Source: Branchiostoma floridae | Lineage: Eukaryota; Chordata; Leptocardii; Amphioxiformes; Branchiostomatidae | Direction of reading: 5' to 3' | DNA length: 64,000 nt | NCBI RefSeq assembly: GCF_000003815.2 | Contig: NC_049993.1 | Location: 5,547,686-5,611,685, forward strand | Shown here: positions 8,647 to 57,698 of the stretch, in pieces | Position numbering within the stretch: position 1 is the first letter of the stretch | How the letters are laid out: every line of letters starts with the position of its first letter | Position numbers and translations under genes: made by a program | Notes under the pieces: generated by a model | Told to the model about the DNA's origin: nothing | The model's database searches: none | What the model saw: the letters and a program-made list of their open reading frames with translations, nothing else

Positions 8647-8791
8647 AATAGCAGGACTGCTGCAATTCCTTAGTGGATTAGAGAATTTTCAGGACCTTTC
8701 AAGGATGGGACAAATAACAACCTCAACTCCAGACTTACGAACAATAGTACTGATCACATCACAACATGTCAAACCAGTAGACCCAACATAC

Positions 8792-8942
8792 CGAGGTATC
8801 CAGTGATGATGGTCACGGGGATTTTGGTGGAATTTGTCGGTGCCTCTGCCAGGATGGGGCAATCTGTTTCTGGTCCAGCCTCCACATCATCACACACACT
8901 GGGCACCAGGTCTGGGCACTCCTCATCTGAGCTGTCGGACAT
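8792..8942 (-). CDS. ZNG1: ZNG1/CBWD zinc-chaperone GTPase, first coding exon (partial gene)
   Basis: ZNG1 proteins are COG0523 GTPases that hand zinc to methionine aminopeptidase 1. The exon starts at the ATG at 8942 and encodes 50 residues plus one base: an acidic leader with CPDLVP (residues 9-14), then CPIL, then KIPVTIITGYL, which is the beta-strand leading into the Walker A loop. The vertebrate protein has the same order: acidic N-terminus, CPELVPI motif (the METAP1 docking element), then KIPVTIITGYLGAGKTT. The donor is CTCG|GTATGT (phase 1), splitting the glycine codon as expected just before AGKTT. I could not find the Walker A exon in 1-8790, so the rest of the gene should lie beyond the left edge. 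This is the leftmost of five tandem copies of the 5' part of the exon, and the only one joined to the GTPase sequence and a donor. Confidence 0.82.
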
Positions 8943-9480
8943 GGTAGTTAACAGCTACACAAACAAACAAATAAACAACAAACAATCAGGATGGGGCAAT
9001 CTGTCTCAGGTTCAGCCTCATCATCATCACACACACTGGGTACCAGGTCTGGGCACTCCTCATCTGAGCTGTCTGACATGGTAGTTAACAGCTACACAAA
9101 CAAACAAATAAACAACAAACAATCAGGATGGGGCCATCTGTCTCTGGTTCAGCCTCAACATCATCACACACACTGGGCACCAGGTCTGGGCACTCCTCAT
9201 CTGAGCTGTCGGACATGGTAGTAAAATGCTACACAAATAAACAACAAACAATCAGGATGGGGCAATCTGTCTCCGGTTCAGCCTCATCATCATCACACAC
9301 ACTGGGCACCAGGCCTGGGCACTCCTCATCTGAGCTGTCCGACATGGTAGTAAACAACTAAACAAACAACTTAACAACAAACAATCAGGATGGGGCAATC
9401 TGTCTCCGGTTCAGCCTCATCATCATCACACACACTGGGCACCAGGTCTGGGCACTCCTCATCTGAGCTGTCTGACATGG
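8850..9480 (-). repeat. five-copy tandem array of the ZNG1 start exon
   Basis: Units of 137, 137, 129 and 133 bp carry, on the minus strand, start codons at 8942, 9079, 9216, 9345 and 9478. Each encodes about 31 residues of the form MSDSSDEEC-P-(D/G)-LVPSVCDD..., followed by an AT-rich spacer built of TTTGT/AAACA words. The coding parts have no indels between copies, while the spacers do. Copy 4 has CPGLVP instead of CPDLVP, and copy 3 has DGPIL instead of DCPIL. In copies 2-5 the frame runs from CPIL into spacer and reaches a stop before the next ATG, so they cannot be read as one fused protein. None has a donor site after CPIL, so they are probably leader uORFs or alternative start regions. 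Decayed copies continue to about 9655. Confidence 0.85.
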
Positions 9481-10379
9481 TAGGAAATGGCTACAGAAAT
9501 AATAAAAAAAATAAATAGATAAACAACATAGTAGCCAGGGTGAGGTGATCTCTCCCTGGATCCTCCTTTATATCATTACAACAAATAAATACTAGTAAAC
9601 AACAAACAATGAGGGTGAGAGACTATTTCTGATTCACCCTTAGTGGTACACACCCCAGTTCTTCTACGACTGGTTTATGGTAGTGCACGCAAAAAAAGTG
9701 AGGAAAAAGTTCTACACTAGGTCTGTGTTTACTTTCTCATATAGTAATTTGCTGCAAAATGATATTGAATACCAACATGGCTGAAAAGCATAGGTAGTCT
9801 GTTTTTTTTTTTGTGAGTTTGTGTTTAGGCTCGAGTGCTATTCCTCCATGTTAAATGTGATCTGCCCCAGTCTTTTAGCAAAGATTGCTGGACAGTAAAA
9901 TGGCACATATTGTCAATGCAGTAAACTTTTTTCTAAGTTCTAACATTAAACCATTGGTCCATAATGATTCACACAATCATACAACAAAATTTGATTTCAT
10001 TATAAAATATGTGAAGGTTTTTAAGAAAATTAATTTCCGTTTAATCAAAAACCCTAATGAAGCATTGTCAATGGCGTCACAAGAATTATGTTAATCACAG
10101 AAGCAACATCTAGCAGGATACAGAGGGAGTCAAGGATATCCTAAGAACATTCAGCTCTGATATGAAGGGTCATGTGAACAAAATGTACAGAAACATTGTA
10201 GTTTCCTGGTTATAAATCAGCATAATAAGTGACAAAAGTGTGCATTGCTATATATTCGCTAAACATCCATAAAAAAACTTAATCTGCAAGATAGGAATCA
10301 AAGAGGACGAATGTTGGACACTTCGGCCCCCTGTCAATCAGGACATTTCGGCCCCAAGCCGAGGACACATTTCGGCTTT
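9481..10379. other. decayed ZNG1-exon repeats, then no recognised feature
   Basis: At about 9515-9575 and 9598-9655 the spacer words (AACAACAAACAAT) and GGGTGAG...TCTCCCTGGAT-type sequence align with degenerate copies of the array unit. The remainder to 10379 is AT-rich, with no coding or structural signal seen. Confidence 0.45.
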
Positions 10380-10479
10380 GCCTGGATACCATACCCCAAC
10401 CTCAAAAATATCTTTTGTGTTGGGGTAGATAGATACACGATAGATACTTGAGATCAGGCTGGGGTTTGGTAACCAGGCT
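10380..10479. repeat. 100-bp foldback element
   Basis: The left end GCCTGGATACCATACCCCAA is matched in inverted orientation by TTGGTAACCAGGC preceded by GGCTGGGG at the right. The inner part also pairs. Related by its ends to the hairpin at 5270. Confidence 0.55.
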
Positions 10480-11944
10480 AATTTCGGCTGGGGTCCAAGC
10501 CCCGATACTAGTAGTTATCTAAAAGATAGCCTGAGCCCTAAGTCTACTAAATAACGTATAATTTTAGGACGTATAATTTTACTTGTACAGTATCATATAG
10601 TGTTCCCCTGTCTACTTGAGAAAATTGCCATTAGCGATTACGGTTTTTGCGTATCCGATGTATGAAGATCCCTTTGGCAATCTTGTACCGTACCCCCCTC
10701 CCACCCGGACAGTTTGTTATTTTGTTTTCAACAGCGTTTTCTTAATGTTATCCATTCCCCACCCTTATATTTGCGTGACCCAAGACCTCCAAACCATTAG
10801 CGGCGTTGGTTTTCTAGTCACTCCCAACCCGTGTCTTTCTCCAAAGTGACTGAACCGTCATTGTTGAAGTACGGAAGGGGCAGAAGAAGCAAGGAGATCC
10901 CTTTTTGCTCCGGTTTTCAGCACGTCCTTAACTTCCCTGTATGTAAGGAAGCTTAGCATTCTGATTGGTTTGGTAGAAATGATATCTGGAGTGGGGCCGT
11001 AGTTTCGGCTCTCTTGCTCTTCTTCTTTGCCTCTCTTTTTTTATCTCGGATCGAGCCTTCGGGTCTCTCTATATGATCTAATGTTATCCCTTCTGTGCAT
11101 AATTTCTCTCTCTCTCCCTCAATCTCTGTCTTTCCCCTTGTCTCTCCCTCTTTATTTCTGTCCCTTCTCCTTCCCTTCTCCCTCTCCTGCTTGTCTCTGC
11201 TTTCTCTCTCTGCCGCTTCCCCGACCCTCCTCTCTTTCGATGGTTGTTTTTGCAGCGATTCTCTGCCAAGACCCGCGTGGGTTTCTGCAAATCCATGCCG
11301 ACAGGACCGCCCCCCTCCCACCGCCCCGCCAAATCAACCTCAAAATCTCATGATCTTGTTTCACAAATCTCGAAATATCTCAATCTTCTTTAAGCTCTAT
11401 CATTTGTAAAAGACTTGGCAAAGTGCTGATATATAAAGGTTATTAGAATGATAAATTTACGCCCCAAATTACCTTCAAATAGTTTTAAAACTCCCTCTTC
11501 TTCTTGTTGACAAAGCAGGGTCAAAGGTCGGATACAACATCAAAACAACAGCACTTTGACACGAGTTTGAGATGTTTTGTTGACGATGCAAATTTTATAA
11601 AATCTTTTTGTTTTAATATTTTTTGTATCATTGTACAACTAAAAAAAATAAAAATTTCGGAGGAATCAGCAATAACTGATAAAATTGCGGGATCGGTACA
11701 CTTGGATGCTTTGAAAGTGGATCTATATTTTCATGGATCAAAAGCGTCCTCTTGTACTTACAGTCATAACTGCACCTTGGCCTTTGACGACGCCGGTGGG
11801 AAAATGCAAGTTTTATGATCAGACCCTTTGCTTGGTTAGACTGGTAACTTGAGACTTAATCGAATCTAGGAGGTACCTTGCAGGTAAAGTTTGGCCGGGA
11901 TACAACAGTACTGCATTACTTTGTTTGACACACAATACTTCCAT

Positions 11945-11964
11945 CAAGGAGGTTAACCTCCTTG
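11945..11964. repeat. 20-bp perfect palindrome with 7-bp flanking direct repeats
   Basis: CAAGGAGGTTAACCTCCTTG is a perfect palindrome flanked on both sides by CTTCCAT. The identical palindrome occurs at 58059 with a different 7-bp flanking repeat, so it behaves as a minimal insertion made only of two fused terminal repeats. Confidence 0.7.
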
Positions 11965-12018
11965 CTTCCATCCTTTCCTAACAAGCAGTCCTTGGCAATA
12001 GATGGCATCGTTAGTCTA

Positions 12019-12141
12019 CAAATAACCTTTGCAGAGAAAGTTATCTGCCTCGAAAGTTCATCGCGTTTTAGACCGACAGGCAAATAACCTTTGCAGAGAA
12101 AGTTATCTGCCTCGAAAGTTCATCGCGTTTTAGACCGACAG
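12019..12141. repeat. 62-bp tandem duplication, two copies
   Basis: Two adjacent nearly identical units beginning CAAATAACCTTTGCAGAG and ending GACCGACAG (12019-12080 and 12081-12141). The lack of divergence indicates a recent event. Confidence 0.85.
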
Positions 12142-12651
12142 ACAATACAGTAGCATAAACAGGGCATAAACTTGACCTTTTCCATGCGACCCCTGGAACG
12201 TAGGGTCAAAGTTGATATGTATCATCCCTGATTGCATTATTAAGACCACGAAGCACAATATAACGGATTGTCGATCTAAAATACATTAGACTTTCCTGTT
12301 ATCAATAACGCTCTTCTTTCAGCTTACGAAAGGTTTGGTTTGTGTATCATATAACGTCAATTTGAAGCTCTGTAACTTCTGTTATAAATGACGTAACAAA
12401 ACAAACTCCGCTACGTGTTTTGTATGTGGCTGCAGTACTTCATTTAGTCGTATAGCGTCTCTTTTCAACCGTGTAGGTTGCAATACTTTGTATCCGACTA
12501 GAAATGAGCGTAGAAGGGTAAATAGTGTATTATTTCATTGTCTAAGCCCGTTTTTACGTCTTTTCCGGCTCGCAGAACATGTCTATTCTCTGCAGTATTG
12601 TTATTTCTTTGGTCAAGGTGAGAATTTTAAGAACCAAATATTTTAAAGCAC

Positions 12652-12953
12652 ATATTTCTTCTTATTTCCGTTAGACTTTCTTTCAGAAATCTCGTAATTC
12701 TTGGCGAGTCACATTTTCCGAGATTGATGTCCTGATTTTAGCGCAATCATAGGCGTAAGAAACTGAATTTAACATAAAGCGTTGCTCGGATTCCCCCATG
12801 CATAACTTCATGCCAGATCATTTGAAAACTAGATATTAATATTCTCATCACCTAGAGAACTAATCGTGGGCGGTTCTAGTGCGCATTCTTCTGACCAATG
12901 ACACACCAGGATTCAGTTGTTCAATGGACCAATCGAAAACTAGTATTGCTTTT
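12652..12953 (+). repeat. left arm of a long inverted repeat
   Basis: About 300 bp that recurs in inverted orientation at 17452-17767. Shared blocks include TTATTTCCGTTAGACTTTCT, TCTTGGCGAGTCACATTTTC and the CCAAT-containing block at 12890-12950. The arms are separated by 4.5 kb. Identity is high but with small indels. Confidence 0.85.
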
Positions 12954-13045
12954 AGATACAATCAGCAGAGACAGCCAATCATGAAAGGTTCTGGGGGTGT
13001 ATTTTTCAGACCAATGGCAGGCCAGGATTCCCTCAATGGACCAAT
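12895..13045 (+). promoter_or_regulatory. cluster of five CCAAT boxes (histone-promoter-like)
   Basis: CCAAT occurs at 12895, 12929, 12975, 13011 and 13041, all on the plus strand, four of them as GACCAAT. It lies 150-300 bp upstream of the histone H4-like pseudogene. Clustered CCAAT boxes are usual in animal histone promoters. The first two boxes belong to the inverted-repeat arm and are copied at 17452-17520 in the opposite orientation. Confidence 0.5.
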
Positions 13046-13200
13046 GGCAGACCAGCAAGTGACAGGTGACAATATTTGCACCTGCGGCATGAGCACACCT
13101 TTGTTCGACAGGAGTCCATTGCTTTCATTCACGGTCGATTCCCCAACCAGTGAAGACCGTATCTCAGCTTCTCCTCACGGACAGCGCGCCTCAAGCCGAA

Positions 13201-13371
13201 ATGTTTGGCCGCGGGAAGCCAAGAGCTAGAGGCAAGCGCCGAGGAAGAGTGCCAAGAGTTACCGTACCGTCCGCGGCAACATCCACGGCATCGCCATACA
13301 AGCCTTCAGGCCAGCCGGGAACCGTCAACAGAATCTCCCGGCTAATATACTTTGAGATTTGCTTTGTTAAA
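13201..13371 (+). pseudogene. histone H4 pseudogene, N-terminal half, frameshifted
   Basis: The ATG at 13201 starts MFGRGKPRARGKRRGR, matching the H4 start in spacing (M.GRGK...GK.G). In the next frame the sequence continues AK..R.V.RGNIHGIAIQAF, the counterpart of H4 AKRHRKVLRDNIQGITKPA. In a third frame it returns as VNRISRLIYFE, the counterpart of VKRISGLIYEE. The order and the distance from ATG to LIYFE (about 52 codons) agree with H4, but at least two frameshifts and a short deletion break it. The C-terminal half (from about residue 60) is not visible. The upstream CCAAT cluster suggests it arose as a genomic copy with its promoter rather than by retroposition (inference). Confidence 0.75.
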
Positions 13372-13430
13372 GGTTAGACGGACTGTTGGGTTGAGAATTG
13401 AACATAGTTACAGACTTGGCTCTATTTCCC

Positions 13431-13545
13431 TACTCACCAAACTGAAGTTAGGATTCGGCTGTTTTTTAACGTGTTTTCCCCAATTTTGTCAGGCTTTCTA
13501 TTTTTTTTACCATTTTCTCCATGTCCGGACTTACCAGAAGCTTGT
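13431..13545 (+). repeat. diverged half copy of the Mutator-like MITE
   Basis: Starts TACTCACCAAACTGAAG and then follows the left arm of the elements at 16521 and 58621 (TTAGGATTCGGCTGTTTTTT, AGGCTTTCTATTTTTTT). The right arm is not recognisable. Confidence 0.4.
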
Positions 13546-13656
13546 AACCGTCCCGTGCACAGCGTCCAGACTTTGCTATCTTACAGAAGATACAAGTCAT
13601 ATTTTCCCTTGCCATGGAACAAACTTTAACTTGCAATTGATGCATTTATCTCGCAG

Positions 13657-13734
13657 CCATGGGTGAGGGCGATGCGTGTGTACATGAAGCACTGTGAACA
13701 AAGACTCGACTGATGGCTGGGTCAGATCACCACG
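13657..13734 (+). repeat. exon-like module, copy A
   Basis: Segment bounded by a polypyrimidine-CAG acceptor-like site (TTATCTCGCAG) and a GTGAGT donor-like site. It contains GACTCGACTGATGGCTGGGT and is followed by CAACTTGCTCCAACC, both shared with the module at 14047. No open frame is conserved between copies, so the coding role, if any, is lost. It may be part of a non-coding transcript. Confidence 0.4.
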
Positions 13735-13889
13735 GTGAGTCGATCCTATGCAACTTGCTCCAACCTATCGTTACTACTTTGACACTTTGTTATATACATG
13801 TAAGCAGTACAAAGCTTTAAGCAAGACGACATAAGCTCGACTGTCGTTCTTGTAGCCTGTGATTTGACTTGATTGTCCGTCAGCGACAC

Positions 13890-13990
13890 TGTACATGTTC
13901 GGTTGCAACTGAAAGTCATTGTCCGTCGGCGACTGAGAGTCATTTAATTGTCCGTCAGCGACACTTTCAGTTTGCAATCGGACATGTACA
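13890..13990. repeat. hairpin with 27-28-bp arms and repeated GTCCGTC words
   Basis: TGTACATGTTCGGTTGCAAC at 13890 pairs with GTTTGCAATCGGACATGTAC at about 13970-13989. The word TTGTCCGTC(A/G)GCGAC occurs three times between 13872 and 13962. A diverged single copy (GCCGTCAGAGACAC) lies near 16930 ahead of module C. Confidence 0.6.
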
Positions 13991-14046
13991 GTCACATTTC
14001 CGCTCACCATTGAACAACGTTGTGAAATTGTTTCAAATTCTTACAG

Positions 14047-14147
14047 CGGTGGGCCAGGAAGTGCATACTGTCCAGTCCCGTGTTGTATGCAGTCCTGAAG
14101 GACAACAAAAACTCGACTGTTGACTGGGTGCCATCGATATCGCCACT
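14047..14147 (+). repeat. exon-like module, copy B
   Basis: Preceded by ATTCTTACAG and followed by GTGAGTAGATCAT...CTTGCTCCAATC. Shares AACTCGACTGTTGACTGGGT and flanking intron-like sequence with copy A, and the GTGAGTAGATCAT donor block with copy C. A further CAG-preceded stretch with an open frame begins at about 14309. Confidence 0.4.
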
Positions 14148-15414
14148 GTGAGTAGATCATATACAGCTTGCTCCAATCTAACGCTCACTTGTGTAGTAGC
14201 CATCTTTCTCCTTAAGCCAAACACTTAGCTGAAGTTATAACTGCAACAAGGCAAAACGTTAGTCTGGCTGTCTCGTTCTTATTGCCTGTGATTTGACTTT
14301 ATTGCAGTGACAGAACCTGGGAAGGAGACATATCGAGCTCTCGGCAACTTCCACAATCCTGTGATCACCCGACACCAACTACGAGTACGTGATCTTCCTA
14401 CTGTCGTATGTAATCAAGCCCGGATTACGATACCACGGAAAGCCCTGCCATGAGGACGTCTGGACCCAGTGGAAGTCGAGATTATTGTATTTTTTGTGAG
14501 GACACGTATGGCCATTTTCCGTATAGCATATAGTCATATCCTGCTTTGGTTGTACTGCCTTACTTGTACAGAAAGCCGTCTTATTCACGTAATATTCGGA
14601 GCGAGGTGACTACGAGGCGAGGCATAATACGTAAGGTAATACGGAACAACCACCCTCATACAAACCCTATTTTAGTACCCTTTTGTCAGCAACATCTTGA
14701 GTTATTCCAGTACAGAACTCTCGATGGCTGGCACAAAATTGTTGTTTTTGTTTCTATGTCTTTGAACTAAGTCTTTTGTTCTCACCTTAAGCCGTATTTA
14801 ATTCCCATATTTTGCTTCCATTCTTGTACAAGAGTGGGAAACAGTTTAGAATTTAGCAAATGTTGACATTGCTGGTGTATTTGGTATTGAAGTAACTTGG
14901 GGTTTTTTGTACTTGGCGTCCTGTGGAAAGTTCGCTGCTGAAGGCTTAGGCTGACGTTCCGCCACTTCATATCGCGTTCTAACTCACATACACACACACA
15001 TTAACACTAGCAGCACTCACACTAACACTGCACATTAACATCTAACAGTTGCACTTGGCACATTAACGCATACCACCATCACCCAGCACATATTAATACA
15101 CTAACACTAGGAACAAATGTCTCAGCCTTAAAGAAAAAAGCAGCAAAATAACTTTCTACGGGTCTTCAAGCACGGAAGGCTTCAGGTTATCCCCACCAGT
15201 GCACTGACAATGTCAGCATTTACCAACTCTGAACTGTTCGCCACTTTTGTCCGAGAATGAAGGCGAACTACGTGAATACACGAGCTTTGGGAGCAAAGGT
15301 GTTATTTCAAATAGGCTCTTCTATATAGTTGTAATCTTTGCTAAAATGTCATCGACAGTTCTGTACTTTTAGCAATGATGTTGTGCAATATGTTTAAGTT
15401 AATGTGAGGCTATA

Positions 15415-15622
15415 CTGTAAATGTATTTAATTTCGCGGGGATTTAATTTCGCGGTAGCGGGAAAAGGGACTTTTCGCGGTGGATTTAAGTTCGCGGTAAC
15501 ACCATAGACTGCAATCTAATATCATAATAGAAAAATTTTCGCGGTGGTTTTAAATTCGCGGTGAAGTGGTCACCGCGAAAACCGCGAACATAAATCCACC
15601 GCAAACATTTCTGCATTTACAG
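15415..15622. repeat. 208-bp MITE with CTGTAAATG ends and TA target duplication
   Basis: Ends are TA-CTGTAAATG and CATTTACAG-TA. The interior is made of repeated TTTCGCGG/GGATTTAA words in both orientations. A second copy lies at 21827-22032. TA duplication and size fit a Tc1/mariner-mobilised MITE. Confidence 0.85.
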
Positions 15623-16520
15623 TATTGTTTTCCTAGCTGGTACGTGAACTGTCAAGTATCTCTAGCTAATATATATGGACAATGAATTTACCTAAAGATT
15701 TGTTCGTGGCCTTTGTAGAACTTTGTACCACTGTTGTAAGCCCGATCACGTAAATCGTGTTATTTGCATTGGTCTGGTTTACTTTTGTATCTAAACAAAA
15801 AAATTAATGTTGCTTTTATCCCAGATCACCTGGGTCACGTACTTCATGTATCCGATTCAAATGCTGCATACGTAAACATAGTGCAGATAGACGACGGCAG
15901 TCCAATATTGTTCTGATAACATCTAAGATTGTTTGTAGTCGCCAAACTTTGTTGTGTTGTCACACTGGAGTGACTGAAAATAAATAAATGTTCGTTTTGT
16001 GTCCATTCATTTACATCATAAGCAGTGAATAAAATTCTTTTGCTCTCATTTTGCCTTTGTATTTCTTGTGTTTTGCTTCATTCTCGCACAAGATTGGCCA
16101 CGTTGTCCTAGAAAGACAGCAAAACCCTTGAATAAAAGTGCTTTGAGAGCAAAGGTATTTTTCGCTGAGAATTTGCTGCATATCTTTGATTATCATGATC
16201 AAATAAGTAAAATTGATCATAGATATCAACGATGCAGTTGTAATAGATATATCATTTGAGCCCCACTGCTAGCAACCTTGTAGGAAGTAGTGAAAGGTTG
16301 CTGCACTGTCAAGCTTGGTCGATATCATTTTGAATCCCAGAATTATTTGATTCGAAGCTTTAACGTTGTCCAAAATGCAGCCTATTTTCTACCGTGTATA
16401 TTTCATGTACAGAATGTTTGCTGTATATCCTGATCAAAACAGTCATAAGGCTAGTAGTAGTAGGTTAGTCAGAATGGTCAAATACATTTTTGTTCTTACA
16501 GTATCAGTGTCATTGTTTGT

Positions 16521-16712
16521 CACTCTCAAAGCAGAGGTTAGGCTCCGGCTGTTTATTTTTAACGTTTTTTTAGTCGTTTTTTATCGGGCTTTCCATTTTG
16601 TATTTTGTTGTTGTGACACAGCAAGATATAATAAAAAAAAATAGAAAGCCCGATAAAAACGACTAAAAAAGTTAAAAAAAACAACCGGAGCCTAACCTCT
16701 GCTTGGAGAGTA
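16521..16712. repeat. 192-bp foldback MITE with 9-bp target duplication (Mutator-like)
   Basis: The terminal inverted repeats of about 80 bp start (C/T)ACTCTC.AAGCAGAGGTTA and end TAACCTCTGCTTGGAGAGTA. The 9-bp direct repeat ATTGTTTGT flanks both ends (16512-16520 and 16713-16721). A second copy at 58621 also has a 9-bp duplication. A 9-bp TSD with long TIRs is typical of Mutator-like elements. Confidence 0.8.
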
Positions 16713-17019
16713 ATTGTTTGTTGCCTCAGTCTTTATTGTAAAGGTATGCTGTTCCAGTGCAAGTTTGTGCCAGACAATTACAATAAAACTAATTTTCTTT
16801 TGCGTTGTTCCCATAATCGATAACGTTATTCCAGGCTCTATTTCCAACATATGATCCGCATATTTCAGTGCATATTTATGTATCTGCATTGTACATTATT
16901 TTATATTTCATATCATAGCGTAAGATAGTGCCGTCAGAGACACTCTTTGGTCCCAATTGCAAGTCATATTTCCACTTGGCATCAAACACACGTTAACTCT
17001 AAGCTTTTGTTTCTTGCAG

Positions 17020-17100
17020 CGTTGGGTGACGAAGGTGATAGCAGGTGAGTACCAACTGACCCTGTTATGAAGCACAACAAAACGGTGAAATCGTAATAAT
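17020..17100 (+). repeat. exon-like module, copy C
   Basis: Preceded by GTTTCTTGCAG and followed by GTGAGTAGATCATTCGCAACGTGCT, which matches the downstream flank of copy B. An internal GTGAGT lies at 17045. No conserved reading frame. Confidence 0.35.
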
Positions 17101-17451
17101 GTGAGTAGATCATTCGCAACGTGCTAAAGATCGTCATGCGTTTTGGTATGTAGATATTCTAGGTGATGACGTACATGATTTGGTATTAGTTATGCAAATA
17201 AGCAGCTAATTAATTGCATTTCATGATAGCACTGCCAAACTTGTCATACATGCCCTCTTTGCTAATGATACTTCCCTTGAAAAAGCTGATATCATTTTGC
17301 GAAGCTATGAGGTTGTAGAACTCTAGTATTTTTTTATTGGTATACATATCAGTGAACAAGACACAGTGGTTATGTACTCTAGTACAGCTAATATCATCAT
17401 CACTGGGACATTTGAAAATAAAATAGACAAAGGACAAAACAATGTGAGATA

Positions 17452-17767
17452 AAAAGCAATACTAGTTTTCGATTGGTCCATTGAACAACTGAATCCTGGT
17501 GTGTCATTGGTCAGAAGAATGCGCACTAGAACCCGGCCCACGATTAGTTCTCAAGGTGATGAGATTAATATCTGACAGTTTTCATTGGTCAAGGAAAAAG
17601 ATCCGGCATGAGGTTCTGCATGGGGGAATCCGAACAACGCTTTATGTTAAATTCAGTCTATTGCGCCTATGATTGCGCTAAAATCAGGACATCAATCTAG
17701 GAAAATGTGACTCGCCAAGAATTACGAGATTTCTGAAAGAAAGTCTAACGGAAATAAGAAGAAATAT
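17452..17767 (-). repeat. right arm of a long inverted repeat
   Basis: Inverted counterpart of 12652-12953. It ends on its inner side at GCAATACTAG, just where the left arm reaches CTAGTATTGC. It carries inverted CCAAT boxes (CGATTGGTCC, TCATTGGTCAG). Confidence 0.85.
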
Positions 17768-18499
17768 TTCATTGTATGTGCTCATTAATTGCCCCAAGTT
17801 GATTAGGTTGATTACTGGAAAAGAAACGTTGGTTGCAGTTCTTCAGTCAGTTGTATGGTGTCTCTCCTTTTGCATGTGCCGAGTGGTCCCGCTACATCCT
17901 TTTATAAAGAATAATCTATATGTGGATACTAAGTGGGGCATAAACAATACAGCTGCATTATCCTAAGGTTCTCCAGATGATAGTGACTTTAAGTGCACGA
18001 TTGAGATACATTTTCTGTTGTTTGCGAGAGTGACAATTTCACAGCATATATATATGAATGTTCAATGTTCAATGTTGTAAGTACATAAGATATTCCATAC
18101 GTTGTGCCCGATGGAAGTATCTGAATGAAATTGTTTAACCCTTTGTAGTAACGTTTTGGTTTGGTTACCCCTGTATTCAGACGTGTCATTTTCGCCTCAA
18201 TGATAACGTCCTCTATTGAGCGCTACCATCATCTGTAAAGACGGAAGGATGCCTACCAGTGGGCAAGCAATGCAATGCGCCATCGAGAGCTTACTGTTTT
18301 TATCGATGTCATTTCACTGTCGCCTAAATTCATGTTATTAGCAAATAGTCTGTAGCAACATTCTGGATTTGTTTCACATCGATGCATCATACACTATGTT
18401 CCTTCGAACATTGCATAACCTTCATCTATTGTTACTTCCACTACTAGTATATTACTGGTTGCCTTATACATTATAACGTTACCTAAGTTTGCCATACAT

Positions 18500-18546
18500 T
18501 GTACCCGTTTTACAATTGTTGTGCAATAAACTTTGACTTGACTTGA
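18500..18546 (+). mobile_element. LINE-type 3' tail with (TTGAC)n repeat
   Basis: The stretch GTGCAATAAACTTTGACTTGACTTGAC has a polyadenylation signal followed by a short tandem TTGAC repeat, the usual 3' end of L2/CR1-like non-LTR elements in marine deuterostomes. The extent of the upstream truncated body is unclear. Confidence 0.4.
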
Positions 18547-18654
18547 CTACATCTGGGAATACAACAGCATCCATTCAATAAACCGAGCAGCCAAGCAATC
18601 AATAAATCGAGCAGCCAATCAATCAATCAACCATGCTATACCATCCCTACCCCC

Positions 18655-19243
18655 TAGCCTCTACCAGGCTCCACCGAGGTCGTTGGAAAAATAGTAGAAA
18701 TTGGCCAAATAAGACAGAAAACACGCCAGAGGAGTCAGATGGCCGAGGAGGACAGTTTGCGACCTAAGGCCGGCCAACACTTCTAGGCCTAGTCTTCCTG
18801 CTCGGAGCGCATCACAGATTCAGCGTCTGAGACGCTTTCTTCATCCTGTGACGCCGTCGAACCCCCATCTTCGGAACCAACGCACCGTGTCCCGTGTCGT
18901 GTTCAGATGACACGTCGGAGTCGTCAAAAACATTGCGCTCCCGGTAAGAGCCCGTCTCGGCATCAACGACGACTTCTCCCGAGGCAACACCTGACTTGTA
19001 TCGATGTTTTCTTTCCAGATGACGCCCGATGTTGAACGCACGATCAAATTCCCGATCACAAACTTTGCAGACGTGAGGCATGCTTTTTTGTTCGGTGGAC
19101 AGAAGGAGAATGATTAGATGTTGATGTGCACACATATATTTGTCGCGCATTTAAGTTTTAGGGACCGTACGTTTTACATCTTGTATGGTTCGTAACCTGA
19201 CTAAAGTCTCGTACTCGACCATGCCGGAGTCTGGTAGAGACTA
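18655..19243. other. segment bounded by inverted CTCTACCAG..CTCC ends
   Basis: TAGCCTCTACCAGGCTCC at 18655 is matched in inverted orientation by GGAGTCTGGTAGAGACTA at 19226. A third single end, TAGTCTCTACCAGACTCC, lies at about 25656. The segment encloses the zinc-finger ORF at 18812-19081. It may be a transposable element carrying that ORF, or two independent insertions. Confidence 0.35.
18812..19081 (-). CDS. small C2H2 zinc-finger protein
   Basis: An 89-residue frame from the ATG at 19081. It opens MPHVCKVCDREF and continues to GRHLERKH, a single C2H2 finger (C-x2-C, then H-x4-H) with the normal aromatic at the third position after the second cysteine. An acidic/serine stretch (DDSDVSSEHD) follows, then a basic C-terminus (RRRHRMKK). 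Two in-frame upstream codons could extend it, so the start is uncertain. One finger alone rarely gives specific DNA binding, so this may be a terminal exon of a larger gene or an ORF of the element whose ends flank it. I saw no clear acceptor upstream. Confidence 0.5.
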   Translation of the reverse strand: MPHVCKVCDREFDRAFNIGRHLERKHRYKSGVASGEVVVDAETGSYRERNVFDDSDVSSEHDTGHGALVPKMGVRRRHRMKKASQTLNL

Positions 19244-19898
19244 CCTACTCGCCCTGCTGAAGGCACCCTCACATTCGTTCCTCACACAGTAAGCCTGACC
19301 TCCGGGCCAGACATAGTTTGGTACCAGTCACACAGAAATGATTTATGTTCCTTCAACAAAACTACTCGTTAAAACCTTTCAACAGAGCGCTAGCGCCACA
19401 TTCCGGTAGAGTTTGGGACTGGCGAATCGTCGCCACAGGCTACATGTATTCCGGGCTACATGTGCCAAAGTCTCCCCGGTCGTTGCGCTTTGTGTAAAAG
19501 AATGTCCGACAAAAAAACAAAAACTTTAAAACGTTAACAAGATTGATCCGTTTATTTGAGAAATCACAGCCAGACAAGTAAACTGACGTTCAATCGTTTT
19601 AGAAAATGGCCGACACTAATAATTTAACCAGGTTAAGTCTGTTGGGAATCACTAGCTCAGAAACAATGTCTTCACAGGTACTACAAATTAATACATGTAC
19701 TAGGTAGAAGAGGAATGTTTACAATCATTTTAAACCTTGAAGCATACATAGGCGTGATGTTGAGGTAATCTAGTTATTTTTGCCGGTGAGTAGCACCGGC
19801 TATGAGACGGGAGTAGCGGTTGCATGGATGCATGGATGGATGGATGGATCGGTCACTTTAACCAAATAGCCCTTCTATACGTACTATTGAGTAATCGA

Positions 19899-19970
19899 GC
19901 CAGCGTGGCCGAGCGGTCTACAGCACGGTACCTATCTTCCGTAGATCGTAGGTTCGAACCCCACTTGCTA
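19899..19970 (+). tRNA. tRNA-like Pol III unit, probably a tRNA pseudogene
   Basis: It has a perfect A box (TGGCCGAGCGG, 19906) and a perfect B box (GGTTCGAACCC, 19951) at tRNA spacing, and a T9 Pol III terminator starts at 19972. The D-arm sequence GTGGCCGAGCGGTCTA resembles Leu/Ser tRNAs. The 5' acceptor GCCAGCG does not pair with the 3' end TTGCTA, and the anticodon loop is irregular. It is therefore probably not a functional tRNA, but it could still be transcribed, or be the head of a SINE. Confidence 0.5.
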
Positions 19971-19980
19971 ATTTTTTTTT

Positions 19981-21826
19981 CTTTGTTAGACAAATCTCAT
20001 GTAGTGTTTTTTTTAATATAAGAAAGACCAATTCAGTAATTCGATGTTTACAAACTCTTTTTTTCGTGTGATTTTGTTTAACATCCAGGCTTTTTCCAAA
20101 ATACGCACCGGCCAGCTTTTTTTTTAGAAGCTTTCTTGTTTACTGTATTGTTGTAACGTTGTGTTCCAACCACTAGCCTCCATAGAAGGCTCTCTGGCCT
20201 TTTTTTCGTCTTATTTGGGCTCATAATACACTTTTGCTGGCCGCTTCTTTTTGTACTGGGTCACTTGTGCTACCGGCCCGTACCACAGGTTCAATAGAAA
20301 ATGTCACTAGCCAGCTCCCTTCTAACAAATGATTGAATCCTGTTGTCATGGCAACACGCCATGTTTACATCAGCCCTAAGACCAGTATCCAATTCGCCCC
20401 CCCTCCTCAAATCAACTTAGAACAAGTTAGATGTCTTACAAGGAGTGATTGGTAGCTCATTTAAAGCCGTCATCAATCAAGTTATAGCATGTCAATATCT
20501 TTGTCTCCTAACGTGTGTACACAAAGAAAGTACATGTACATGTATGTTAACCTCCTCGGTACAAGACATCAATGCACATGGTTTTGAGTTTAGGAATCAG
20601 TGGTCAAGGACGTATAAATCAAAGATGTTCAAGCATGTTTTAAAACTGTTCTGCAACTAAAAAGCAATGTAAAAACTTGATGCAAAAGCGGTTTTGATCC
20701 GTTTCAAGATGGTATGAAGTTTTTAAAGCAGTCTGCGATCGGAATTTTCAATTTTGTGTTTTATTACCGGTAACGTGTCGAGTCCTGGTTGCTACCGTGT
20801 TGTTGGTGCCTGGTTCAATGGCAAGGGCGTGACAAAGTCGGCGCAGTGCACACAACAACTTGGAAACTTGTAACTAATCACAGAAATTTACATGGAAATA
20901 TGAGGTTTTCGCACGGTCCACAAAATTTACGAAATGATCTAAACATTTCAGTTGATTATGACGTACAAAATCTACATCTTGGTTATCCTAAATTTTACAC
21001 TCCAGGTCAATAGGTAAGCAATACGTAACTTGACTGTATGTTTGTTCGTTTGTTTATTCATTCAACTTGACTGAAATGATAATTTTCATCGAGTCAAATA
21101 TGAATAGAAAAATGACAAAGCAGGCCTTTACCGGTATGTTTTGTAGGCCTCCCAAAACATAAAATATGAAGGCGCGACTATCATGAAATGTACACGTTAG
21201 CGACAATCTCCAAATATCAGCACGACAAATCCCTTGAGTGTACAGTTACTAATCATCTGTTTCCATCTTGTCATTCTTAGCTTGTGACACAACGTCACAA
21301 GGCAGACAAAGACACAACATAATCCTTCATTTTAAACTTCACACTATTCATTTAAACTCTTCAGTATTAGTACAATGTAGTACAATTCGACAACATCCGC
21401 GGTATTGAAGTCTCGTGAAGGAAGCCGGGCTTGAAGGGCTAGCAGTCTAAAAAACATCGTCATCCTATACGTATACCCTACTAAGACTTGTATGAGATTG
21501 GAGCGAAGTATTTTTGCTAACGCTAAACATTTTCTACATGTCGATCTTTGACAACAAAGCCTTTGTTTACAGAGGCCCGGAGCAGTGGTCAAATTAGCCA
21601 TAATTTTTCCTTGGGGGGTCCCACAAATCAGGCTGTCTGAATTGTCCCAGCCGACAGTCGGTCACACCTGTTGGCAGCTCCTGACGGACGTTTAGAAATT
21701 AGAACGCGGTTTGACGGGATGTTTGTTTCTGGGACGGTGTTTACTTACTCTGGGCGTTTAGAAAGCTATTACTCTTCACATAGAACGTGTCTTTTCAATC
21801 CAGCATCCTCGACATTTTCTGAAGTA
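19981..21826. other. intergenic, no gene recognised
   Basis: AT-rich, with scattered short ORFs lacking any domain. A GGATG-type microsatellite (TGGATGGATGGATGGATC) lies just upstream, near 19832. Confidence 0.5.
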
Positions 21827-22032
21827 CTGTAAATGCATTTAAGTTCGCGGGGATTTAATTTCGCGGTAGCAGGAAAAATGACTTTTCGCGGTGGATTTAA
21901 TTTCACGGTAACACCATCTACTGCAGTCTAATACCTTAATAGAAAAATGTTCGCGGTGGATTTAATTTCGCGGTGAAGTGGTCGCCGAAAACCGCGAACA
22001 TTAATCCACCTCGAACATTTCTGCATTTACAG
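21827..22032. repeat. 206-bp MITE, second copy of the CTGTAAATG family
   Basis: Same ends (TA-CTGTAAATG, CATTTACAG-TA) and the same TTTCGCGG interior as 15415-15622, with scattered substitutions. Confidence 0.85.
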
Positions 22033-23489
22033 TATGTCAGTTGGCCAGGGTAGGTTGGTATTGAATAGATATGACGATTTTTATAATTAGAGAAATTGAA
22101 GCCCACAATGACTGTAGGAAGCCAGCAAATACATGGATTCCAAACAAATATTTCATATCATAACAAAAGTGGTTCTAGTCCTAATTTGGATGCCATGTTA
22201 AATCAAGTGTGGTGAAGTGGACATACGAAGTGGTATTTCAGCTTTTTAATGAAAACACATTAACGAAAAGGCACACCACTGTGATTAGAAGTATCTCTCG
22301 GGAGAACTTATAATTAAGAGCCTCCGGGTTTGTACGGGTGCCCTTTCATATTGGGCTATGGCTTAATTACAGAGGTATGTTTCACTTGACTTAACACTAC
22401 TCACTCGCTACTTTTCATTGGCGCTACTTTTCACTGGTTAAAAGGCGTATAACATGACGTATGACGTTATCACAATTCTTCAAGAACATTTGGGAAAGAA
22501 GCAATTCCGTACATCTTCGGATGTAGAAAGGTATTATTCTGTGGACTCTGTTCAAGGTATTCAAAGCCCACTTTTTCCCACCTCCCCAATGCAGGCAGTA
22601 AGATGGAAATCGAACAATGTATTGTGAGTGCATCTCACTGATTTTAATACATGAGGAGAAATCAGTGAAAGGTTATGAAATGCCCACACAAGGAGCTTGT
22701 TTACCGGTTTGCTACCGTCTTTATAAGGACTTGTTTGAACTCCTTCATGAGAGAGTAAGTCCTATAAGGAAAAGTCAAGAGTCTGTGGAGGCCTCTCCAG
22801 GACCTATAAAGAAAGCCGTAATTGGCTGATAAGGGTTTCCATAGAGCCGGGTATTATGCCATAAGCAGTTTTGAATAGGAGCTCTGGCAAATAACACCAT
22901 CTCAAAGGTTCGATTGTTGTCTTCACAAGAAGTTAGTTTGAAACTTAAATTCTTTAAATGTTCTGCAAATGATATTTCGAACTAGAAACGAAATCTTAAA
23001 AGATCGTTGTCTACTAGTCTAAGACTATCTTGCGAAAATGTTTGATATACGGAATTGTTAATTCTTGTGAAAAATGATTATGAAGAAGTGATTTTGTCTG
23101 GCGAGAAACCCCGTAGGGAGCGTCCTTGGTGATACGTAGCAACGGCCGTGCGCGTTGGATTTCCGCCACCACGCCGCACAATGTGTGCAGGTTTGTTTAG
23201 TAAGACGAGGGCGCAAGGCCAAGACAAAGAACAGGTGATTGGATCTCTCTCTCACGGTGGCTACAAAATACCAGCTCTATTGGGTCTCATGGCAGGCCGG
23301 TAATTGAGCTGTTTTCTATGGGCCGGCCCTGACTGGATCAGACTACTGCAGACTCACTACTGCGTGACCCGTGGAGAGACCCGGGCGGACTCGGTTCAAC
23401 TCCCAAACAACGTGCGTTTTGGCGTCAACAGCACAAGTCAAGGGCCGCTGTTTGGAAACACACGGCCGGCCGTGAGGGACACACGGGCC
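22033..23489. other. upstream region of ankyrin gene A
   Basis: No gene recognised. The last ~185 bp are GC-rich and open in the frame of gene A but contain no in-frame ATG before 23490, so this is taken as 5' untranslated or promoter sequence. Confidence 0.45.
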
Positions 23490-24710
23490 ATGGGGATCCT
23501 CCACCGTGCCGTGCTGGACGGGCGGGTGCACCAGGTCAGGCTGCTCGTGTCCATCGGGGTGAGCCTGGAGGAGCGCGACCGGGGCGGGCTCACCCCGCTC
23601 ATGCTCACCTGCTACGTCGACAAGGAGGAATCCGGACTCCGCATTGCCAGAATTCTGGCCCGTTCCGGAGCGTACTTGAACGTGGAAGACTCTGCCGGAA
23701 TGAATGTTCTACACCACGCCTGTAAGGCCGGGAAATACGGCATCGTCGCCTTCCTACTCGACGAGGACGCTATGGTTACCAACAGTCCCGACAAGCTGGG
23801 CAACACCCCGCTGAACTATGCTGCTATCAACGGGAACCCTCAGTTGGTAAAACTATTGGTGAACAGTTTGACTCGGTACAGGGTTGATATTGATCATAGG
23901 AATAAGGAAGGCTTCACGGCGCTACTTCTAGCGACCAAGTACGGACACTACCAGGCCTCGCAGATTCTGTTACGGGAGGGCCGCGCTTCCACGAGAGTCC
24001 GGGACAACGAACACTTCATGAACCCGTCTGAGTGGGCGAAGAAGAGTCACAGCATCCACACCAGGTACATGCGACAAAAGACCGCCGCGACCCGACGCAT
24101 CATGACCGGGAAGTTCGGGCCTCCCTCCGCGAGCGACAGCGACTCTTCCCGAAGCACGACGTCGTCTCTCTCCGCCTCTGATCGGTCCATCTCGCCGACG
24201 ACTATCGCGCGTTCCGAGCGACTTTCGATGGCACCCTCACCGAGAAAAACTACCGCTGTTTCCTTAAGCTTCCCTCAGCTAAGACCCCAGCGATTTACAA
24301 GCCATAGCAACACCAACTCTTGTAGCTTCCAAGAACAGCACCTGCGGCCCTTATTGACGACAATACGACAAAGGAGCGCGAAGGAAGGTCGACCGTTTTC
24401 TTCAAGTACCATCGCCTCAAGTGCCAGCATTCCCTCAAGTTCGTCCTCTTCCGTGACCCTTATAGAAGCACCACCGGAGGAGGTGCGAGACGTGGAAAAC
24501 AACCAATTAAGAACGATATTCCAGCTGTATGAGAAAGACTTGAGATGGAGACCCAAGTCTCTTCCTATTCCAACCATCTCACTAACGCCGCCCCCCTCCC
24601 CACGTCCGTTGCTGAACCCACAGCAGAGAGAGGGGTCGTTTGTGAGTGTCTTCACGGCGGGTACTGCCCTCACTACCGCCGGGTCAGGAGTGGGACTGAC
24701 GGTGGAGTAA
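23490..24710 (+). CDS. ankyrin-repeat protein A (ANKRD34/ANKRD63-like), intronless
   Basis: Encodes 406 residues. The ATG at 23490 sits in GGGCCATGG, a strong initiation context, and is followed at once by the first ankyrin helix (LHRAVLDGRVHQVRLLV). About five ankyrin units span residues 1-175 (for example GLTPLMLTCYVD, GMNVLHHACKAGKYGIVAFL, GNTPLNYAAINGNPQLVKLL, GFTALLLATKYGHYQASQILL). A long serine-rich, probably disordered tail follows. Near residues 336-365 is FQLYEKDLRWRPKSLP, then a TPPPSP motif, a weak counterpart of the tail motif of genes B-D. Domain order and single-exon structure recall vertebrate ANKRD34 and ANKRD63. The function of that group is poorly known (likely protein scaffolding). 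A candidate ATTAAA polyadenylation signal lies at 25530. Confidence 0.88.
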   Translation: MGILHRAVLDGRVHQVRLLVSIGVSLEERDRGGLTPLMLTCYVDKEESGLRIARILARSGAYLNVEDSAGMNVLHHACKAGKYGIVAFLLDEDAMVTNSPDKLGNTPLNYAAINGNPQLVKLLVNSLTRYRVDIDHRNKEGFTALLLATKYGHYQASQILLREGRASTRVRDNEHFMNPSEWAKKSHSIHTRYMRQKTAATRRIMTGKFGPPSASDSDSSRSTTSSLSASDRSISPTTIARSERLSMAPSPRKTTAVSLSFPQLRPQRFTSHSNTNSCSFQEQHLRPLLTTIRQRSAKEGRPFSSSTIASSASIPSSSSSSVTLIEAPPEEVRDVENNQLRTIFQLYEKDLRWRPKSLPIPTISLTPPPSPRPLLNPQQREGSFVSVFTAGTALTTAGSGVGLTVE

Positions 24711-25755
24711 GGGCCAATTTGATGGCACTTAGACTCTCGAGAAACAGGTGCAAGGTTCAGAATCATTTACATAGATATGGTAAACATAGGACGTCTTTTC
24801 GTTCATCTTAATGTTTTTAATCGATTTACACAATCCTTAATTTCCTCAGTTTGTTTCATGATTAAAACATATGCTATAATTGTCTTGCGACGCTTACTCA
24901 TACTAACTTCCTGTCTACATAAAAGAAAACTGCATGTGTTCTTATGTTACATCAAAAACTGTACATGTAAAGAATGGTTTTTCATTGTAATGAAATGACT
25001 CAGTGAACATGAAACGTTTTCTGTACACAGACTATTGTTTGGTGTGACTAGCTCCAGTGACAATGGGAGCTGCCACAAATTTGTTGATGTCAAAGTTAAT
25101 CTCGTGTTATGAACAACTTACATGCTACGATTTACAGGTAAAATCTAAACACATATAAGTACTTGTGGAAATAGTTTCTGTGGATATACGTGGACTTGTA
25201 TCAGCAATTTTTACCTGTTAAAGTGAACTTGATGTGAAATGTGGTACATGGCAAATATGTATGGATATATAGGTCTCAAATATGTGCATTGGATAGGTCT
25301 TATATCATGGACTAGTTGAAAGGTATTGTGGAAATAGATTTTGTATGGATGTTAAACTCATGATCTAAGCTCGAAAGACGTGATGTTCCTCAGGGAGTTG
25401 AAAATACTGAATGAACTGATTACAAATGTGCCAATCCTGAAAATGACATTTCGTAGCTTCGTGAATTATTCACGGGAAGAACCGTCCACTTTTCTGACTG
25501 CTTGCTGGCTTCAAAGCAAATCTGAGAAGATTAAAGAATAGATTTGTCACTGTCTAATGTCTTTGTCATGCTCTGTGTGATTGTACTACGTGTAGAACTC
25601 GTATCGCGTGGTTTTGTTATCTCTTGGGAGTACGTAGCTTAGGCCTAGTCTCTACCAGACTCCGACCTGGCCGTATAGTAATAGGGGACGTAACTCCAGT
25701 AGGAGTTAATTGCAGCGAACTGACCGGCGGGTGGATAGCTGGATAGACTGTAAAA
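24711..25755. other. 3' untranslated and downstream region of ankyrin gene A
   Basis: AT-rich sequence with no ORF of interest. ATTAAA at 25530-25535 is a plausible polyadenylation signal. A single transposon-like end, TAGTCTCTACCAGACTCC, lies at about 25656. Confidence 0.45.
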
Positions 25756-26044
25756 AGTTAGTTAAAGTTAAAGTCCTTCCCGCGCCTGATGGCGCATAGG
25801 GCGGCGCCCATCTCCGTTTCATAAACCCTTGGGCCACACAACGCAATCACTACAGCAGGGGGCTAGTCCACTGGTAGTGGTGTGTGTTCAACTTCCATGC
25901 TCTTTCCCGAATGCCGAGTGCTAATCAGAGAAAGAAGCATGTACCATTTTTAAAGTCTTTGGTATGACTCGGCCGGGGATCGAACTCACGACCTACCGAA
26001 TGCAAGGCGAACACTCTACCCACTTGGCCATTGCACCGGTTCAA
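25756..26044 (-). mobile_element. tRNA-derived SINE with target-site duplication
   Basis: Reading the minus strand from 26044, a tRNA-like head has an A box (ATGGCCAAGTGGG) and B box (GAGTTCGATCCCCGG) at tRNA spacing. A ~200-bp body ends in a short repeat (ACTTTAACTTTAAC). The 9-bp direct repeat ACTGTAAAA flanks both sides (25747-25755 and 26045-26053). A complete tRNA head, an unrelated body and an intact TSD identify a full-length SINE. Confidence 0.85.
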
Positions 26045-26053
26045 ACTGTAAAA

Positions 26054-27192
26054 GACTGACTGAAATCCCATAGCAACTTATTTGTCCCTATTTGGCCAAA
26101 TTCTTCTCTTTTTCATTCAGCTGACACGTCTGCTTGGAATCTAGCTCAGACCGCGGTTACCGTCCTTGTAAGTCGTCGTGCGATTCTGATGTCGTAGGAT
26201 TGTCGTTCGAGCACGCCACGAAACGACAAGGAACTATTACTGCCTTTTCCATTAAATGACAGTTGGATTCTATGCAACACATGCAACAACTATCTCCAAA
26301 TATTGGTCTTAGTTCGATCGTACGTACGGATGTGACCGAGTCCTATAGGGGGCAGGATGTCTGAAAAGGTATTATTCTGTCATCCAAACGTTAACGTTCG
26401 TTTGACAAGTCATCTCATTTGTGTGTACTTATCCCCCACTATAGTATAACATTGCGACAAGGGCAAAGACAAATCGTAACCGTATGACCCACAGAAGGTG
26501 TGAAACTACCCAAAAACAGATTACACGTATCGAACATGTTTTTAGGTATGAAAAATTGGACGGCATTGTGTTCAATGTAGGGCTTAATCTTGGCAGTTTC
26601 CGATATCGGTAAAATAAAGAAGCCATTAAAAGGTAATTCCAGTCTGCAATGTTTTGACGTTGGCTAGGCTTGTCGGTTTGTTACAGTTACAAGTGGTTCT
26701 GCCTATATTCTCTTCTGAAAGGGTCAATGTCATCACCATGGAGACGGAATATGGATCACTTCTTGTCCACAGCACACATTAAAACACCAGAACGTACTCA
26801 GAGAATGAGTAAAAAAAAACTTTTGTTCCTTTCACAATGTCCTTTTCTGTGGTAAGAAAAACGACTTTTTTGTAGCAAGAACAAACGTGTGTCCCGAGTC
26901 GCTAATTGGAGCGGAACAGGTTCTGACGGCGGCCGGTCCGACACGGCTTTTGTACCGAGTGCGCCAGTGTTGTTCTACCAGGTGGATAATAGCGGGTATT
27001 ACGTCTAAGGTGGTTTCTAATCTTTACAGTTTCGTGATATCTATCCCAACACGGTAATGATGGTCGATATGCAACACTTGGCATTAGCTTTACGGTATTG
27101 TGTGAGGAGCTAGCTGCATTTCACTGGATAGGGGGTATCAATGCATAGATTTGATGATACCCGATACAGGAATGAGGATTGGTAACGTTACT
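26054..27192. other. intergenic, no gene recognised
   Basis: Contains no domain-bearing frame. Short ORFs are not supported by composition or context. Confidence 0.5.
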
Positions 27193-27527
27193 TAAGCCAT
27201 ATAAAGTTGCCAATATTGATGACACACGCGTTAAAGTTGCCTTCGTTATGAAATCTAAGTGGTCTGGAAGGTTGAACAAATGACTGAACAACACGAGTGT
27301 GCTATACAGAGCAATATTTTTTTTTTCTTCAAAATTTCTTTTTTGACTTAGGCATTCTATGACATTAGTATATATTTTCCAATATTTTGCTTTCAATTTA
27401 CGACATATATATGCTATTTTTGCAGCTACTTTGTATGATTTATAGAATGGTTGAAAACGTTCTTTTAAGCGGTCGAAAATTGATGCGCGCGCGTATGTCA
27501 CCCACATATTCAAATCAACATGGCCTA
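27193..27527. repeat. non-autonomous DNA transposon, copy 1 (GATGACATCC-end family)
   Basis: The right end GTCACCCACATATTCAAATC...CATGGCCTA matches, inverted, the ends of the elements at 29266 and 61352. The internal block AAGTTGCCTTCGTTATGAAA...GGAAGGTTGAACA is shared with 61449. The left terminal repeat is decayed. Confidence 0.6.
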
Positions 27528-27981
27528 ACTACGGAAGCAAGCGAACAGATTGAACCAGCGGTTACTATGAGGATGGTACACAGGCAATCAAAGTTTTTAT
27601 CCATCAGGAAATGAACCCAGGACCCCCCCCCCCCAAAAAAATACAATGCATATCTTTAAGACAAACTCAGAGGTTTTGGATCGTCTCCAAGAGCAAGAAG
27701 CTATCAAATATGTTCCTGTGATGACATCGTTGCCAGGCAACAAGGGGCGAACACACGTCATGACGTCAGACGCAGCCTCCAGGCCAGTCCCCGGGTGGGC
27801 ATGATATAATTACCACCCACAGTAGCAAAATATGATGGATTAGATTAGAAACAGCAGCGAAGGAACATTTTAAAAGTTGCAGGAAAAAGTTGTGATATAT
27901 TTTTCCACGTCTTAATTATCATTTTCTCGTCGTCGACAATTGTTCTGATCTGTATGAAGTAAGAGTAAAGAGATTCGTAGA

Positions 27982-28272
27982 TATATTGTGGAGAAGGAGA
28001 CCTCAAGCCAACCGTTCACACTTACGCCACATCTTCAGAAAAGACGCTGGAGCCGCATGTTCCCCGTTTAGGAACTTTATTCGAACCGACACACAACAAG
28101 ACGTCGCCACTGTTGCCAAGGCCTGCAGCGCTGAGACGCCAGAGCAAGAAGAGTCAGCAAAGCTGCAAGGGCATCGTCACACTAGAAACAACATTGGACT
28201 CTCCCCAGCGTCTTTTCTGAAGATGTGGCGTAAGTGTGAACGGTTGGCTTGAGGTCTCCTTCTCCACATATA
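27982..28272. repeat. ~290-bp foldback element flanked by 17-bp direct repeats
   Basis: The arms of about 75 bp are almost perfectly complementary (left starts TATATTGTGGAGAAGGAGAC, right ends GTCTCCTTCTCCACATATA). TAAGAG(T/C)AAAGAGATTC occurs at 27960-27976 and again at 28271-28287. The 88-codon ORF across it is a by-product of the arms. Confidence 0.8.
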
Positions 28273-28921
28273 AGAGCAAAGAGATTCAGTTAGACAGATT
28301 TCTCCCGGCGTTTTCCCAATTACGCAGTATATATATTACTTGTACTATGCAGCTAGCTGCTATGGTTATCGATGTTACGAAATCATAAAGCTAGTATCAT
28401 AAGTCAGCCATATTTCTACAAAAAAATCCTGAAGTCACAATCTTGATAATGATTTTTTTTTTGTAGAGTCACCAGGTAACGTTGAAAAATAGAAACGCCC
28501 CAAAAGGCTCTTATGAATATTTTTTTCTGAAATAAACCGTCATCGCCGGAGGCCACAATAAGGACGTGAATATGATACAGAAAATCAGCATTCAACTTGC
28601 AGATACGTTGTTTTTCAACGCCTAATTAGATATCTCGAAAATCATAAAAATAATCTCATAGCTATTTCTTTCTATTGTCTTATTGACCTCAAAATACAAC
28701 GTCCCACCGGAGGTTATGATATTAAGGTAAGGAGACGCGTGTTTCATAACAGAATATAAATATACAATATCGCTCCTGTAGCTACGGTCGCTATTTTGAA
28801 GCAGACGTCATCGGCAGACCAATCAAACCGCCCCAAATCACGCGTTTCTTGGAAATAATTTTTTCAGATCATATTTTACTGAGCCATCAGTCTTGCGTCA
28901 GTACGATTTTTGCTGTCGGAC

Positions 28922-29117
28922 ATGGCGCACGGTGCTGTGGTGTGCGCGCTCTGTGTGGTGATATTTCCCCTGGCCGTGTGGACCGCAGGGGCGACGGTTT
29001 GCCTGCGGGGCTGCCACAGGCGACCTTCCCGGAGCTGCGCAGTGGAAAATGCGGGGTTCTACAAGCTGTGGTGGGAGTTTCACCAACACGTGTTCACAGG
29101 CCCACACGGACTGAAAG
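28922..29117 (+). CDS. leucine-rich-repeat transmembrane receptor, exon 1
   Basis: The ATG at 28922 (GACATGG) begins a signal peptide (MAHGAVVCALCVVIFPLAVW) followed by a cysteine-containing segment. The exon has 65 codons plus one base and ends at AAAG|GTACGC. The acceptor at 30414 (AAACTTAG) restores the frame with an aspartate codon. The whole product is 784 residues and is described under the second exon. Confidence 0.78.
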
Positions 29118-29265
29118 GTACGCATGTAGACAAATATCAACATTTAACATATTCCCTCGAAAACTCTTGGATCTTAGATTTTCAAACAAGTTGTGCAAGT
29201 CTTCTTCAGACCAAGGTTTGTTTATGAGCATCATGAAACTCCGTCTGTCTCTTTAAGGATTAGGC

Positions 29266-57232: not shown

Positions 57233-57698
57233 GTAAGGTTTGCTGAGGTTTGTAATGAATTTACCGCTGTTATGATACCTACAAGTCAGCCACAGACGGT
57301 GCCCATATGTTTTGTTAACCTACTGCCCCAGTTGTAATACTAATAGACAACAGTGACCAGACTACTCAATTAAAAGTTAAAGGGTTAAAAGCTGTTGCCA
57401 ATTATTAAGCAGATGGACAATATCTTGGAAGAAAAGTTGATTGTACTGTATAAAAGAAATATGCACCTAATCTTGAGTTAGTTCTGAATGAAGGAGTTTT
57501 CTATGGGAAAATGCATTGGTTGTTGTTAATAATTACCGAATTGATATGATTAATATCTTAGACTGTCTCTTCGTGAGAAAGTTTGTTTGAACATTTGTTT
57601 ACTCATGAGGTGAAATTGGTAGGCTGGGTGACATCAAGGCCTTGAAACATGAAATGACTTAAGAACCTTTACTGGACTTTGTTGGTACTTTCTCTAAC

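Follow-up and report, generated by a model that had tools for sequence, protein, structure and literature searches.

Why should the beginning of a gene be present several times over, and are the extra copies ever translated? These questions are raised by a stretch of 64,000 nucleotides of the Branchiostoma floridae genome (the window), on whose minus strand five start codons follow one another, each with a version of the same motif behind it. The docking motif of ZNG1, a zinc chaperone, is of the type CPELVP; the amphioxus start exon has CPDLVP. In an initial annotation the locus had been read as a ZNG1 start exon duplicated in a five-copy tandem array, whose upstream copies might be serial upstream open reading frames (uORFs) or alternative starts served by staggered promoters.

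The five-copy array on the minus strand was confirmed. TRF gave a period of 137 bp and 4.8 copies for positions 8850-9487 (91% matches, score 1030), and the five ATGs lie at 9478, 9345, 9216, 9079 and 8942 (copies 1-5). The features of the locus are listed here, with the score of each acceptor-like site.

9536..9617 (approx.), minus strand: decayed sixth unit, made up of a spacer relic (9577-9617) and a 3' exon relic (9536-9583)
9371..9478, minus strand: copy 1, 35-codon frame with CPDLVP; acceptor-like TAG before 9490, score 11.4
9229..9345, minus strand: copy 2, 38-codon frame with CPGLVP; acceptor-like TAG before 9357, score 1.1
9085..9216, minus strand: copy 3, 43-codon frame with CPDLVP; acceptor-like TAG before 9228, score 5.2
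8948..9079, minus strand: copy 4, 43-codon frame with CPDLVP; acceptor-like TAG before 9091, score 3.2
8943..8954, minus strand: the 12 nt from the copy-5 acceptor-like TAG to the ATG, where the coding exon probably begins; acceptor score 3.2
8792..8942, minus strand: copy 5, coding part of the authentic ZNG1 start exon; donor TCG|GTATGT, with its GT at 8791

The coding part of the unit reads MSDSSDEECPDLVPSVCDD[D/V]EA[E/G]PETD[C/G]PIL. CPDLVP had been assigned to all five units; it is present in four, and copy 2 has CPGLVP. All four upstream frames do end, as had been claimed, at a stop ahead of the next ATG, with gaps from stop to ATG of 25, 12, 5 and 5 nt for copies 1-4. Copy 5 alone continues into KIPVTIITGYLG: its reading goes on to AEAPTNSTKIPVTIITGYLG, with TCG|GTATGT as donor. 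The annotation had allowed the continuation and a donor to one copy only, which holds for these sequences but not for donor-like sites in general, as CCA|GTGTGT is identical in all five copies (9435, 9302, 9173, 9036 and 8899, minus strand). TCG|GTATGT scores better than this common site. Counted by eye, CCA|GTGTGT is in phase with the true donor, and splicing there would delete KIPVTIITGYLG.

The ATG context (ACC-ATG) is the same in every copy, and the copies differ by substitutions and in the length of their spacers (40, 36, 44 and 44 nt). The spacer differences sit in TTTG-rich stretches, which are probably prone to slippage. A search for the start exon in the 513-Mb assembly, where the window is C15:5547686-5611685, scored seven candidates and gave five matches at E<=0.001, all of them the array copies.

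Two features were absent from the initial annotation. One is a T-rich tract followed by TAG, 12 nt ahead of the ATG in all five copies, and because of it the repeat unit resembles an intron's 3' end joined to the first 31 codons of an exon. The sites were scored with a matrix built from nine ZNG1 acceptors, on which the true ZNG1 sites, left out in turn, score 0.3-15. Ranked among 5685 minus-strand AGs, the site of copy 1 falls within the top 0.44% and that of copy 3 within the top 2.9%; the sites of copies 4 and 5 reach only the top 5.6%, and that of copy 2 the top 10%. The best acceptor-like site is thus that of copy 1, not that of copy 5. The acceptor of ZNG1 exon 8 is likewise TTTG-rich, and a CTGAT upstream in copies 2-5 is branch-point-like by the consensus.

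The other feature is the decayed sixth unit, upstream of copy 1, which has neither an ATG nor the docking motif. In none of three scoring schemes did any of 1000 shuffles or any of 1620 other segments score as high as its exon relic; a wider stretch, 9490-9700, part of it low-complexity, was equalled by 1 of 2000 shuffles. The loss of both ATG and motif is as predicted for turnover without selection. A further decayed unit at 9612-9700 was considered and rejected, as its exon part did not stand out from chance: in the three schemes its score was reached by 54, 207 and 258 of 1000 shuffles, and by 37, 243 and 286 of 1202 real segments. An origin of the duplication at a shared CCTGGC was also abandoned once the decayed unit had been found, since this unit leaves the ancestral intron edge undefined.

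Copy 5 is the start exon of ZNG1, a gene that is apparently intact and has its GTPase exons beyond the window. The annotation spoke of the copy nearest the GTPase sequence, but that sequence is not in the window: exon 2 matches PF02492 with E 5.5e-7, which passes the cut-off, at C15:5546822-5546914 (minus strand), outside the window and about 9.6 kb beyond exon 1. The view that the ZNG1 start exon is partly duplicated, with the last copy alone leading to the GTPase, was nevertheless supported. Exon 3 reads NGCLCCSVK, in which the CxCC motif of the cobW GTPase domain is present. With a human ZNG1-type probe, further collinear exons were placed down to about C15 5519.5 kb, and a C-terminal exon-like match was found at C15 5502.4 kb. 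The only other PF02492 match listed, on C14, was rejected, being by eye a UreG-like P-loop on the reverse strand; ZNG1 therefore looks single-copy as well as intact. The N-terminal extension of ZNG1 contacts the zinc finger of METAP1 (MAP1) (PMC10642216), and the 57-aa start ORF matched no Pfam family.

Inspection by eye of five other tandem arrays around ZNG1 revealed no clear exon boundary. A 13-bp repeat of 2.7 copies was seen at C15:5536973-5537007, outside the window, just 5' of the exon 4 acceptor.

Whether the copies could lie within a transcript was approached through CpG depletion. The CpG observed/expected ratio is 0.37 at 9490-10400 and 0.91 at 10500-30000; in the array it is 0.13, a value that reflects a single sequence present five times and is not independent evidence. 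Of the change points, the eight best fall at 10.2-11.3 kb, with one at 12.0 kb. On the larger scale, 29 of the 39 1-kb bins in C15 5519-5558 kb are below 0.55; upstream of this domain the figure is 4 of 53. Of 184 bins of 1 kb that were sampled, 29% likewise fall below this value. The CpG-poor domain ends near C15 5519 kb, yet the last exon-like match is at about 5502 kb, and the edges of the domain therefore do not mark the gene ends exactly. In B. lanceolatum 5mC is found nearly all within gene bodies (PMC6292497). CpG loss upstream of the array, taken with this, suggests that the transcription unit begins upstream of the array. Upstream, from 9.5 to 13.5 kb, a strict donor pattern gave one minus-strand candidate (11764), and no leader exon was identified.

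The architecture of the unit has a published counterpart. In the globin gene BflGb6 of B. floridae, a repeat called a mirage comprises the 3' end of an intron and the 5' part of exon 2 in units of 150-160 bp, with six or three units depending on the haplotype, and RT-PCR suggested regular splicing (Ebner et al. 2010, PMC3087553). Mirages are also told of in amphioxus Adh3 and troponin C (TnC) (PMC3087553, PMC3902484), and similar repeats are reported for PGBD5 (PMC3902484). As proposed for ZNG1, these are tandem repeats over splice boundaries, reported or proposed to be harmless to splicing; their unit lengths differ from that of the ZNG1 array in Adh3 (10-72 bp) and PGBD5 (60 and 108 bp) (PMC3087553, PMC3902484). 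The excerpts of PMC3087553 and PMC3902484 used here state no mirage at a start exon, nor the places of those in Adh3 and TnC.

A globin control was drawn from the present assembly, using the ten matches over the cut-off (12 were listed), each with about 1.1 kb of upstream sequence. One of the ten loci, L041, has an array of the globin type, 158 bp by 4.2 copies, with an acceptor and half an exon as its unit; it is probably BflGb6 itself. The exon frame is open in all four of its copies, and 8 of its 10 variable sites are synonymous. The BflGb6 and ZNG1 arrays are alike in having several tandem units of about 150 bp made of an intron 3' end (in ZNG1 a probable one) and an exon 5' part, in that the downstream copy alone reaches the full exon, and in the open exon frame of every copy. 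They are unlike in that the globin unit lies at an internal coding exon, whereas the ZNG1 unit bears the initiator ATG, so that its copies would become uORFs upon retention in the mRNA; the ZNG1 intron would lie in the 5' UTR.

Arrays as such are common: a 200-kb sample (14,745 bases of it N) held 10 of similar period (50-300), 4 of them with at least three copies. One repeat in the random sample, 137 bp by 1.9 copies at L030:3693-3948, has TTCTCCAACAG in each copy and is possibly another mirage.

Given the match of the unit to the published lancelet architecture and the globin-type array in the same assembly, the ZNG1 array is probably a mirage, a minisatellite-like duplication of an intron-exon boundary, of which copies 1-4 are spliced out with the intron. 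The intron would be a 5' UTR intron beginning upstream of about 10.2 kb, and the spliceosome would mostly pick the acceptor of copy 5, which together with the good donor would define an exon of ordinary size, so that copies 1-4 would be discarded. The array would turn over by unequal exchange or slippage, its short frames being under no selection.

The initial annotation had taken the open frames, beside the indels in the spacers, as a sign of function. This was not supported: under random change copies 1-4 would be free of stops in 76-87% of cases, and the globin array behaves in the same way. In the comparison of synonymous and nonsynonymous change that the annotation had proposed, 9 of 93 exon positions vary among all five copies, 5 of them synonymously (P 0.03-0.09, depending on transition weight), a weak leaning towards constraint; among copies 1-4 it is 3 of the 6 variable positions of 93 (P 0.13-0.24, by transition weight). 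This bias was not used as evidence of translation, since the bias is stronger in the globin control (8 of 10) and the authentic copy is under constraint in its own right. Open frames and synonymous bias, present also in the globin array, say little about translation in ZNG1, and in mirage copies generally they are by themselves no evidence of it.

Leaders of eukaryotic mRNAs that are regulated by uORFs carry short frames ahead of the main ATG. The ZNG1 array resembles them in this respect; it differs in that its frames copy the protein's own N-terminus. A literature search for a precedent of uORFs made by a repeat listed one paper, which was unrelated. If a leader kept some or all copies, through an upstream acceptor or by escaping splicing, they would act as serial uORFs that lower ZNG1 translation and perhaps yield docking-motif peptides. 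Such a leader would be favoured by the acceptor-like site of copy 1, which is the best, by the four upstream frames, each open and stopped before the next ATG, and by the fact that retention would leave the ZNG1 frame unbroken. We nevertheless consider it unlikely: open frames are expected by chance and recur in the globin control, copy 2 has replaced CPDLVP by CPGLVP, and the decayed unit has lost ATG and motif altogether. With gaps of 5-25 nt there would be little room for efficient reinitiation, and four uORFs in one leader, all in the same ACC-ATG context, should all but silence ZNG1. Nor was any RNA structure indicated in the 701-nt leader, which folds less stably than 20 of 20 shuffles. 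It is a still more doubtful idea that the acceptors of copies 1, 2, 3 and 4 compete in the 5' leader, to give ZNG1 mRNAs with 4, 3, 2 or 1 uORFs encoding free CPDLVP or CPGLVP peptides. Were it true, a zinc chaperone would have an evolving dimmer in the changing copy number of a minisatellite.

The equal ATG context of the copies would also accommodate staggered promoters, with every copy the alternative start codon of its own transcript. This is very unlikely, as copies 1-4 run into a stop and have no good donor, and the cryptic donor CCA|GTGTGT that they share with copy 5 would delete KIPVTIITGYLG; CpG-poor sequence reaching about 10.2 kb or more also argues against starts inside the array. 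An inflated copy number or a merging of two haplotypes deserves mention because the array is known from one assembly and, in the draft, the haplotype 1 version of the BflGb6 mirage was misassembled (PMC3087553). Such an artefact is hardly to be expected here, where the units differ in substitutions and spacer length and a decayed unit flanks the array. Intronic copies 1-4 are thus the most likely state of affairs, and a leader that retains some of them is possible, copy 1 having the best acceptor.

If the array is a mirage, the locus adds to those of lancelets one at a start exon, where retention would spare the protein yet add uORFs. It is suited to asking how one among near-identical acceptors is picked and whether minisatellite copy number affects translation.

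Two other features of the window were noted. A 163-bp repeat of two copies (94%) lies at 57689-58015; read on the minus strand, its copies are in different frames, with KDLLNWLYA in one and a stop in place of the W in the other. An open stretch of 468 codons on the plus strand (23304-24710) resembles, by eye, ankyrin repeats.
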